Positions 8,599 to 63,908 of a stretch of DNA of 64,000 nt are shown piece by piece; positions within the stretch are counted from its first letter, which is position 1, and each line of letters begins with the position of its first letter. The stretch covers positions 62,001 to 126,000 of the forward strand of contig NZ_SBIT01000001.1 of the NCBI RefSeq assembly GCF_004765785.1. The letters are read 5' to 3'. Under the pieces are notes generated by a model. It had not been told where the DNA came from. It made no database searches and saw nothing but the letters and a program-made list of their open reading frames with translations. Origin of the DNA: Halorussus ruber (GTDB lineage Archaea; Halobacteriota; Halobacteria; Halobacteriales; Haladaptataceae). The translations under genes were made by a program, and so were the position numbers.

Positions 8599-8775
8599 AC
8601 GGGTTAGGACGGCCGTCTCGGTACGGCTACAGGCGTGTTTAGATGCCTAAGACAAATAATATTATGTCTTTTACACAATTTTATATTTTCTTACTGCTCG
8701 TATAGGTCTCTTTCTGTCGGGCCGACGCTCGAGGAGACCAGCGGTCGGCGTGGGCGTTCGTTTCGACCGACTGCT

Positions 8776-8798
8776 CGGAAGACGCAAGGTGCCTTCCG
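8776..8798 (-). repeat. family-H hairpin, copy 1 (diverged)
   Basis: CGGAAGAC and GCCTTCCG pair with one A-C mismatch around the 7-base loop GCAAGGT. It shares the layout, size and flanking bases (ctgctcggaagacgc) with the better-preserved copy at 20860-20882, read on the opposite strand from copies 3-6. It is located just downstream of phoU. Confidence 0.5.
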
Positions 8799-8806
8799 GT
8801 GGGTTC

Positions 8807-19930: not shown

Positions 19931-20757
19931 ATGGACGCAGACAAGTACCCGCCCGAGGACGACCGACGGCGGTTCGTGAAAGGCGTCGTCGGCACCGCCG
20001 CGACGACCGTCCTGAACGCATCGACCTCCGCCGCCGGTGGCACCGGCGGTCCGACCACGTACGTCGGCATCGAGAACACCGACGGTCCCGCGCCGCGCGG
20101 GATGCCCATCGTCCCGCTTACCATCGACGACGAGGGCTACCTGAAGGGCGTCTGGCCCGAGGTCAGGGAGAAGGAACTGAAAGACGGCAGTACGCTCACC
20201 TACACCGCCCAAGAGATGGGCGGAGTCACCTACACCGGCCGGTGGTTCCAGTACTGCGGCGTCCAAATCGCGCAAGGGTTGCGCCCCGAAACTGACCAGG
20301 ACAACTTCCTGCGGTCCAAGCCCGGCCTCTACGAGTGGCAGGCCGACCACGAGCAGGGCCGGAAGCTCCACGTGGACGACTTCGCCGACTACGAGGAGTG
20401 GACCAACGGTATCGGGTCGGCTGGCGCGGGCAAACCCGCTCAGACGACGTGGCGCTCCCAATCCGAGGGCGACGAGGAGGTCAAGAAGCTCCCGGTGCAG
20501 GTGCTTCGCTCGCCGAAAGTGTCGGACCTGCCCGCCGAGAGCGACCACGGCGCGTTTCTGCGCGCGGCCACCGAGTCGGACTTCGTCGCGTGGCTCGACA
20601 AATGCACCCACTTCTGTTGCACGCCGGGGTTCAACTCCTCGCGGGACGCCTCGAAGTTCGACGCGACCGACGCGGGTACTGCTAGTGTCACCAGTCGGTG
20701 TACGACCCGTTTTCGCCGGTCGAAAAGTCGTTCAACGCCTTCCCACGACCAGAGTAG
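19931..20757 (+). pseudogene. Rieske iron-sulfur protein gene, frameshifted and with an internal stop
   Basis: The first 245 residues read as an archaeal Rieske protein of a cytochrome bc-type complex. A twin-arginine start (DDRRRFVKGVVG) is followed by the first cluster motif CTHFCCTPGF at about residue 225. After codon 247 (about 20672-20676) a net one-base loss changes frame. The expected second motif continues in another frame as Y-C-stop-C-H-Q-S-V-Y-D-P-F, where a TAG (20683-20685) replaces the usual Gln codon, and runs on to PRPE at 20757. The literal open frame ends at 20827 with unrelated residues. No cytochrome b gene adjoins it, so it looks like a decaying extra copy. Confidence 0.85.
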
Positions 20758-20827
20758 CGTCGTGGCTGGGCGCTTTTTCGAGGTCGAGATTGGAGTCGCG
20801 CAGACTGCACGACTGACTACGGGCTAG

Positions 20828-20967
20828 CAACACGACTGCGAGCGAAGCGACTACCTGCTCGGAAGACGCGGGTTGTCTTCCGGCGTTTTTTATCGACGTT
20901 TTACAAGTGAACAACTCCCAAGCCAACGGCTTCGGAGTTCTGAAACGCGGTAAAAGGTTGAAGGTAG
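20828..20967. other. spacer with terminator-like repeat
   Basis: The region between the Rieske remnant and tRNA-Val contains the family-H hairpin with T-run (20860-20891) and no gene. Confidence 0.6.
20860..20891 (+). terminator. family-H hairpin copy 2 followed by six T
   Basis: The perfect 8-bp stem CGGAAGAC/GTCTTCCG around the loop GCGGGTT (20860-20882) is followed by GCG and T6 (20886-20891). It has the shape of an intrinsic terminator for plus-strand transcripts. On the minus strand the loop is AACCCGC, identical to copies 3 and 4. Confidence 0.55.
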
Positions 20968-21041: not shown

Positions 21042-21604
21042 AAGTTGGTGCGACCTCCTTCGGACGCATTTCTTCGTTTGCCCCGGGGATAATTGAACCT
21101 TTCGGATTCCGACGCAGTCCGGCGATTTACAATGAAGGTTCGGCCTAACGGCGCGGCGTTCGGCCGGTAGAACGGCTAGTTTCGGCGAGAGAAGGGCTTT
21201 GGATTCAACTCGTCAGCTATGATAGTACTCAGGGCCGGAGAAATAAATACCCTTATTTAAGAAATATACTTATGGCTTAGAGAAGCAATTACATTTATTT
21301 AGTTGTTCGGAAGAGATTCAGTCTGGAAGCGGGAGATAGCCTCAGACTCGAGCCAAGCCGTCTCCCGCACCGCGACCGCACCTCGTCCTCCCCAAACTCC
21401 TGTGCTTCTCCCTCGTCGCTTCGCTCCTCGGTGCGATGCTCGTCTACTGGCAGACAACCCGCGTCTGCCGAGCCTTCGGCTTCGCCGAAGACCTCGCGCG
21501 CGACGATGGCGCGGCGAACGAGCCGCCGCGCCAGCGCGCGCCGGGCCGAACAGTTCACCGAGCGCCAGCCCCTCAACAACATCCGACCGGGAGTCCCGAC
21601 AGCT
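21042..21604. other. 560-base intergenic region before trpD
   Basis: No supported gene is seen in this stretch. It contains an AT-rich block (about 21238-21300), then a GC-rich segment with the family-H hairpin copy 3 (21449-21469) and a second hairpin CTTCGGC-ttc-GCCGAAG immediately after it. Open frames across it translate to low-complexity Arg/Pro-rich sequence and are shadows of the repeats. Confidence 0.6.
21449..21469 (+). repeat. family-H hairpin, copy 3
   Basis: Stem GGCAGAC/GTCTGCC around loop AACCCGC, followed by GAGCC. The third base pair is C-G here but A-T in copies 2 and 5, a compensatory change, while the loop is identical to that of copy 4. Confidence 0.6.
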
Positions 21605-41252: not shown

Positions 41253-41531
41253 GTTCAAACTGGCCCTCCCCGGAGGGTCAACGTTTCGATGGGTGCCAGC
41301 GTTTGCCGGTTGCGAGAAATGAAGTTGTCCTCCGGCGCGGAGAGCGTCGAATATCCCACTCAGCGACCGCCGGGAGACAACCCGCGTCTTCCGAGCCATT
41401 GCCTCGCTCCGCTCAGCAAGACTCCGCTCACGTGACCGCGATCGGGCGGGAGTTTTCTAAAACGTCACCACCCAATTCTGGGTAGTTGTCTCCGCCGAAG
41501 AAGCGACGCTCGAGAAGCTAACGTCGCTTGA
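41253..41531. other. spacer with a family-H hairpin
   Basis: The 279-base gap between the EamA gene start and the CBS gene end contains the family-H hairpin copy 4 (41373-41393) and no supported gene. Confidence 0.5.
41373..41393 (+). repeat. family-H hairpin, copy 4
   Basis: GGGAGAC/GTCTTCC stem with one G-T wobble around the loop AACCCGC, followed by GAGCC, as in copies 3 and 5. Confidence 0.6.
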
Positions 41532-42041
41532 CTACAACCCGACCTCTCCCTTCCGACGCTCGTCCCGAACCGCGCGAAGCACGTCTTGGCGGGCCACGAT
41601 GCCCAGCAGTTTCCCGTCGTCGTCCACGACCGGCAGGCGGTTGATGTCCCGTTCGTCGTCGGCCAGCAAGTCGAGGAGGCGGTCGAAGTCGTCGTCGGGG
41701 CGGACCGTCACCACGTCGTCGGTCATGACGGTGCTGACGGGCTTGCCGGCGTGTTTCAGCAGGTCGAGTTCCCTGTCGAGGTCGTCCCACGAGAGGTCGA
41801 TGGCGTATTCGAGCGTCTCGAGGAAGGGCGGGAGGCCGACCGGAATCCAGAGGGTGCGGTCGCTCGGCTGGAAGATGTGAACGAGGTCGTGTTGGGTCAC
41901 GATACCCACGACTCGGTCGTCGTCGTCCACGACCGGGAAGCCGTTGAAGTCCGCGCTCCCGAGGCGCGTCAGGACCTCGCTTATCTCGTCGTCGCGGTGG
42001 ACCGTCTCTACGTCGGTCGTCATCAGGTCGCGTGCGTTCAT
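41532..42041 (-). CDS. two-CBS-domain protein
   Basis: The 169-residue stand-alone Bateman module has CBS1 (MNARDLMTTDVETVHRDDEI, then FNGFPVVDDDDRVVGIVTQ) and CBS2 (VSTVMTDDVVTVRPDDDFD, then INRLPVVDDDGKLLGIVAR). A longer linker joins them (IFQPSDRTLWIPVGLPP), similar to bacterial regulators with an inserted segment between CBS pairs. It binds adenine nucleotides by family knowledge; the partner is unknown. Start ATG 42041. Confidence 0.9.
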   Translation of the reverse strand: MNARDLMTTDVETVHRDDEISEVLTRLGSADFNGFPVVDDDDRVVGIVTQHDLVHIFQPSDRTLWIPVGLPPFLETLEYAIDLSWDDLDRELDLLKHAGKPVSTVMTDDVVTVRPDDDFDRLLDLLADDERDINRLPVVDDDGKLLGIVARQDVLRAVRDERRKGEVGL

Positions 42042-62028: not shown

Positions 62029-62164
62029 ATTTCTTTTAGAATTGTAGAACTGTCTGGTGGCGGAAATCGAACGGAGCTAGCTTCAGGCTTGAACATAGGA
62101 GTCTGCCGCACCGCGCTGCAACCGCGAACCACACCCACCCCGACCGATTGCGTTGCTCGGCCGC

Positions 62165-62187
62165 CGGAAGACAAACCGCGTCTTCCG
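62165..62187 (+). repeat. family-H hairpin, copy 5
   Basis: Perfect 8-bp stem CGGAAGAC/GTCTTCCG around loop AAACCGC, followed by AGCCTG. Confidence 0.6.
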
Positions 62188-62237
62188 AGCCTGCGCTACT
62201 CATCCCTCGCGCGGTTGGCGGGGCCACGAGAGACACC

Positions 62238-62258
62238 GACGGACAAACCGCGTCCGTC
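62238..62258 (+). repeat. family-H hairpin, copy 6
   Basis: Perfect stem GACGGAC/GTCCGTC around the same loop AAACCGC as copy 5, 51 bases downstream of it, followed by GAGCAGTCACTCG. Several stem pairs differ from copy 5 while remaining paired, with unchanged loop. Confidence 0.6.
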
Positions 62259-62390
62259 GAGCAGTCACTCGCTTCGCTCGGTCCGTCGAGCAGTCACTCG
62301 CTTCGCTCGTGACGACCCCGCCAGCGCGCGCCGAGTCGGGAGGAGAGGCCAGTACGTGCCGAGAAGAAGTCAACCCGAGCGTTCGACAGC

Positions 62391-63908
<1,518 letters not shown>

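Follow-up and report, generated by a model that had tools for sequence, protein, structure and literature searches.

Hairpins with a shared loop

Are the intergenic hairpins that recur in the genome of Halorussus ruber, with one loop and changing stems, binding sites for a protein or RNA, or parts of something larger? The question arises from a 64,000-nucleotide stretch of contig NZ_SBIT01000001.1 (the window), in which six hairpins at 8776, 20860, 21449, 41373, 62165 and 62238 had been predicted to share the loop AAMCCGC, closed by GAC/GTC. The core GACAAMCCGCGTC is exact at five of them: 20865–20877 on the minus strand, and 21453–21465, 41376–41388, 62170–62182 and 62242–62254 on the plus strand. 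Shuffled windows, with one mismatch tolerated, contained a mean of 0.58 cores, and five or more appeared in one of 100 shuffles. The sixth site, 8776, does not share the loop. It is a decayed copy with a broken stem (GGAAGGC/GTCTTCC), and it still fits the two-hairpin model described below (8741–8801, minus strand; covariance model R1, 26.7 bits, E 1.5e-4). The stems named in the prediction are present, except that the copy at 41373 reads GGGAGAC/GTCTTCC, with one pair that is not Watson–Crick. All six sites lie between genes according to a home-made gene caller, as had been proposed.

The genome-wide core search suggested with the original prediction, run on the 31 contigs (4.3 Mb) of this genome, returned 113 exact matches to GAC-AAMCCGC-GTC (63 on the plus and 50 on the minus strand), against none for the reversed pattern. 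GAG follows four bases past GTC in 99 of the 113. Looser de-duplication left 104 copies for the analysis of pairing, and strict de-duplication left 89 for that of gene context. The outer five pairs of the hairpin, named H1 here, are all Watson–Crick in 92 of the 104 fetched own-genome copies and in 40 of 49 copies from other haloarchaeal records. The tally for other genera drew on 26 sequences picked from 35 loci that were read. Bacterial records matching the core pattern were rejected as chance matches: none of 15 has a fully paired outer stem, two of the 17 in the list being omitted as their match lay too close to the locus end. Ten different perfect 5-bp stems occur among the 104 copies, with GGAA, GGGA, GGAG, GGCG and GGCA as the most frequent inner four bases; since the common stem types are few, independent changes are far fewer than copies. 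Among the 520 cells examined, the exceptions to Watson–Crick pairing comprise four G.T, five A.C and five others. The predicted compensatory change is thus confirmed over the 104 copies and, combined with a fixed loop, it implies that the fold matters at some level.

A module of two hairpins

The original prediction overlooked that the hairpins do not stand alone: each forms one half of a module of two, which is itself set in larger palindromic repeats. This module, M, spans approximately 51 nt and reads ACC-[H1, 8 bp, loop AAMCCGC]-AGC-[H2, loop TCRCTTCGYTC]-GAC, H1 being its left half. The loop of H2 is also fixed, and its stem is variable and covarying. After removal of 18 copies lacking a clean H2, 109 were left; 76 end cleanly at GAC, 67 make up alignment A1 and 28, all of one length, alignment A2. 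In A2, 98.4% of the 448 cells are paired, a value flattered for H2 by a selection that demanded at least five contiguous pairs with G-U allowed, and 11 of the 16 pairs have changed on both sides. Its covariation score is 0.501, compared with 0.148 when shuffled, and sliding the partner abolishes the signal. H1 alone scores 0.268 in A1, compared with 0.109. G-U pairs are nearly absent, with a single cell in A2, and the ends of the module, ACC-CGG and AGAC, are invariant.

The copies in the window differ in their state of preservation. At 20838–20885 (minus strand; R1, 49.3 bits, E 5.3e-10), H1 (CGGAAGAC/AACCCGC/GTCTTCCG) is intact and H2 partly decayed. The T6 run that had been reported (20886–20891) lies directly 3′ of this H1 when the plus strand is read, and downstream of the gene called at 19931–20827. 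The copy at 21445–21492 (plus; 53.5 bits) combines H1 TGGCAGAC/AACCCGC/GTCTGCCG with a short H2, CTTCGGC-TTC-GCCGAAG. The copy at 41368–41422 (plus; 60.6 bits), in which the H1 arms GGGAGAC/GTCTTCC are unlike, has TCCGCTCACGTGAC after its GAC end, a sequence that forms the right arm of another H2. Judged by sequence comparison with the nested copies L061, L070 and L093, these arms and the leftover H2 arm look like what recombinational collapse of a nested pair would leave. Two further copies lie close together: 62162–62216 (plus; 49.8 bits), with H1 CGGAAGAC/AAACCGC/GTCTTCCG and an H2 half formed by host sequence, and 62234–62314 (plus; 50.7 and 18.5 bits), with H1 CGACGGAC/AAACCGC/GTCCGTCG and a duplicated left part of H2.

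Filled and empty insertion sites

The module is found at recurring points of two bigger palindromic repeats, which we named E and F. Regular-expression searches of fetched own-genome DNA counted 14 filled and 12 empty instances of the F position TCATCC^CTCGCGCG, and 20 filled and eight empty instances of the apical loop of E. A regular-expression sorting of the 104 copies by host class left 42 as 'other', and the E and F assignments were made partly by eye. Filled junctions read host-ACCGG...GAC-host, the target bases showing no consistent duplication. The module also enters itself. For one type of H2, its loop holds another copy in seven cases and is empty in ten, and in locus L070 copies are nested three deep at a 38-bp spacing. 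Contexts resembling E and F accompany the module outside the genus as well.

In the window, the copy at 21445–21492 occupies the F position. Remains of E, whose arms were read by eye, surround the copy at 41368 (approximately 41324–41457, minus strand), and F encloses the last two copies (approximately 62072–62345, plus strand). Within the latter, 62200–62213 (plus strand) is an empty TCATCC^CTCGCGCG site of the kind filled in other F copies.

Some further repeats were observed alongside. E is a large, multi-arm repeat in loci L010, L019, L027 and L030, and in L209, where the module is missing; its long variable arm, GGATAT...ATAG, remains paired among copies of differing arm sequence, and the fold of L019 has a z-score of −6.7. 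In L028, E and the module copy are succeeded downstream by short GGTCGGCTGGTCGGCCGGGCGCGGC-type repeats arranged head to tail. The module itself also hosts another repeat: in L002, L008 and L058, and in nested form in L090 and L092, its H2 contains a second insert of double-hairpin type, CGAAAATCGGAGATTTTCG + TGATCA + CGAAAGGCTTCGCCTTTCG.

Distribution among relatives and in haloarchaea

Comparison between species had been proposed as a check with the original prediction. When three gaps of the window were compared with their orthologues, none of the 17, 8 and 17 relatives examined for the respective gaps (74–93% identical in marker proteins) contained an H1-like hairpin, some gap limits being dependent on the gene caller and a few gaps very short. 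The gap at 41532 measures 279 nt here and 57–120 nt in 14 of the 17 relatives, and that at 62391 contains F-like sequence lacking the module in relatives G011 (L165) and G014 (L170). The core is present in 17 of the 18 members of the genus, at 0 to 113 copies per genome, and named Halorussus records predominate among the haloarchaeal matches to its pattern. Locus L219 of genus member G009 shares its flank with the H. marinus locus L142. Five plasmid records match, four of named Halorussus and one of halophilic archaeon DL31; no match was found in the phage records searched.

Beyond the genus, the constancy of the loop breaks down. The exact core with GAG occurs in 15 of the 391 genomes of the class. 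With model R1 and E ≤1e-3, modules with other H1 loops were detected in 130 of the 145 haloarchaeal genomes searched. At E ≤1e-5, R1 matched 33 of 43 haloarchaea; the control, 203 genomes from the remainder of the phylum, gave no match. Ten of these control genomes were itemised and the rest only counted, and their lower G+C may make the control easier. Loops of H1 vary by lineage (GCTTCGC, GCTCCGC, GGAAC, TC and TCGCTTCGCTC), and the parts that recur across lineages are CACCGG, GAC/GTC, CCGAGC, the H2 loop and the GAC end. Three Haloarcula loci (L161, L148 and L098) contain a repeat unit in which the core TGGGACAAACCGCGTCCCACGAGC adjoins CACGGGGGTGTC, as a tandem pair in L161, with the same H1 loop and a different stem.

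Gene context

Strict de-duplication gave 89 copies for the test of gene context; one lay at an edge, and all 88 that could be placed are intergenic (home-made gene caller). Their orientation (22 convergent, 21 divergent, 19 tandem sense and 26 tandem antisense) fits random placement (chi-square p 0.97). Independence of neighbouring transcripts is what the original prediction had itself held to speak against a selected structure, and a terminator or promoter role was rejected on this ground for the genome studied. An intrinsic terminator, a hairpin with a T run after genes, was likewise rejected; along with the random orientation, A5 or longer immediately before H1, which on the opposite strand amounts to a T run behind the hairpin, was seen in four of the 104 copies. 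In other genera there is a convergent lean, with 13 convergent, four divergent and 13 tandem among 30 placed loci (p 0.05); these are what is left of 35 read loci after four inside called genes and one unplaceable were set aside. The convergent loci include two neighbours, and the window had served to train the gene caller. A search of Rfam 15 with the window and 17 loci returned two tRNAs and no family matching the module above its gathering score. In loci L233, L237, L247 and L253 of genome G089, from another family, the module is flanked by two same-strand T5 runs, which are possible transcript ends.

Search for a mobilising enzyme

Y1_Tnp (PF01797) has seven matches in the genome, six of them full-length. 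A tnpB-like gene adjoins tnpA in the gene layout of L031, L032, L033 and L036, and less clearly in L034 and L035. The ends of tnpA loci were inspected in this genome at five of its six full-length loci, and L034 contributed one flank; none resembles H1 or H2, and the reading of the module as fused IS605 ends found no support in this genome. An H1-like hairpin, in a variant form, occurs in the fetched surroundings of tnpA only at L032. PF01797 was detected in ten of the 18 genus members and not in the other eight, of which seven carry the core, in up to 30 copies (G001). A resident Y1 enzyme therefore does not explain the present copies, and a Y1 transposase as the obvious mover was set aside on this ground and on that of the unlike ends.

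Comparison with known repeats

Our literature search found no paper describing the element. Classical MITEs have terminal inverted repeats and a target duplication. The module has neither a terminal inverted repeat spanning the element nor a consistent target duplication; what it shares with MITEs (described in part in PMC3119063) is that it is short, non-coding and dispersed.

SMR-A of Haloquadratum walsbyi, as presented in the relevant sections of PMC3119063, is a repeat of approximately 110 bp with prominent inverted terminal repeats, in three unrelated sequence families. By the same account it is, like the module, haloarchaeal, present in tens of copies without a transposase or target duplication, strongly inclined to insert in the palindromes of other repeats and of unexplained mobilisation. 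That description sets it apart from the module, with its approximately 51 nt, two tandem hairpins, fixed loops, covarying stems and self-insertion. The module thus departs from SMR-A in size and terminal repeats and agrees with it in lacking target duplication and in inserting into palindromes of other elements. PATEs, also haloarchaeal, resemble it through near-terminal palindromes and lack of target duplication; according to the passages on them in PMC3119063 they have ends in common with IS605-type transposons, whereas none of the IS605 ends inspected in its own genome is shared by the module.

The GTAG and CGTC REPs, as the pertinent part of PMC3733652 describes them, are palindromes of 20–40 bp, intergenic, of high copy number and with compensatory stems; CGTC REPs, too, are said there to be without a known transposase. 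The module differs in having no GTAG or CGTC foot tag, a fixed pair of hairpins, and loops that are kept while stems vary. G-T pairing, often observed in the stems of GTAG repeats by that account, is nearly absent from the module, and no stand-alone Y1 transposase was seen near the repeats. In the part of PMC13155455 available to us, we found no statement on haloarchaea. In its behaviour, the module comes closest to the Haloquadratum small mobile repeats and the bacterial REPs.

Mobile repeat or functional RNA

Taken together, empty sites, nesting and variation in copy number suggest that the hairpins are probably the left half of a non-autonomous mobile repeat of approximately 51 nt that is defined by structure, and that the module seems to spread by using other hairpin repeats, as well as itself, as sites of insertion. 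A recombinase or transposase would act on the module folded as single-stranded or cruciform DNA, would recognise it by its ACC/GAC ends and fixed loops, not by the letters of the stems, and would join it into exposed hairpin loops. Pairing would persist through the need to fold, with help from template-switch repair and from exchanges among copies; stems would therefore drift as pairs while loops stay. More tentatively, the module may be what is visible of a transposition system shared across the haloarchaea. In it, a non-Y1 recombinase would read structure instead of stem sequence, recognising on folded DNA the exact ends and both fixed hairpin loops; it would insert the module into the loops of other palindromes and of the module itself, building nested arrays in the course of the class's history. 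Several points weigh against mobility: no mobilising enzyme was found, movement was not directly seen, and, at the protein identities of these relatives, absence from a site could reflect turnover or loss. Amplified composites of host and module, which are not separate insertions, account for some of the copies, and the convergent lean in other genera is what an RNA 3′-end role would predict.

Such a role, as a terminator, 3′ stabiliser or protein-binding hairpin pair under transcript selection, could account for the strong covariation with fixed loops, the retention across the class, that lean and the A5 runs of four own copies. We consider it improbable, given the random orientation of the 88 own copies, the orthologous gaps that lack the module, the lack of an Rfam match to the module across the window and 17 loci, the lack of an evident RNA role for nesting, and a G.U count that does not exceed A.C although selection on RNA should favour it. 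For the same reasons of orientation, orthologous gaps and pairing, the binding hairpin originally proposed finds no support, and a DNA repeat that is dispersed and nests is the better fit. It is about equally unlikely that the module is a REP-type element which a Y1 (HUH) transposase mobilises, in the manner of RAYT and GTAG REPs, or that it represents a minimal PATE with the fused ends of an IS605-type transposon. Compared with the RNA role, this reading stands no higher. Hairpins, lack of target duplication, intergenic dispersal and nesting recall both, and Y1_Tnp genes are at hand in the genome; against this stand the seven core-bearing genus members in which PF01797 was not detected, IS605 ends unlike H1 and H2, and an H1-like variant at L032 only among the fetched tnpA stretches. 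Somewhat less doubtful, if still a minority view for us, is spread without a dedicated enzyme, with palindrome slippage, template switching and recombination between repeats copying and homogenising the module, and nesting and compensation arising as by-products of DNA metabolism. Presence of the module does not require Y1 genes, stems are near-perfect with no excess of G.T, several mismatched stems combine two common stem types, and 41368–41422 resembles a collapsed nest. Exact ACC...GAC ends at several unrelated host positions that have empty counterparts are hard to obtain through slippage, and the fixed sequence of both loops also speaks against this view.

If the module moves as proposed, it would be an abundant, class-wide haloarchaeal repeat recognised by its shape, with fixed loops and free stems. 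The question of mobility posed by the small mobile repeats of Haloquadratum would then extend to most haloarchaeal genera, and the module would offer a concrete substrate in the hunt for the enzyme. It would also explain why intergenic DNA of haloarchaea is rich in covarying hairpins that may pass for regulatory RNA.
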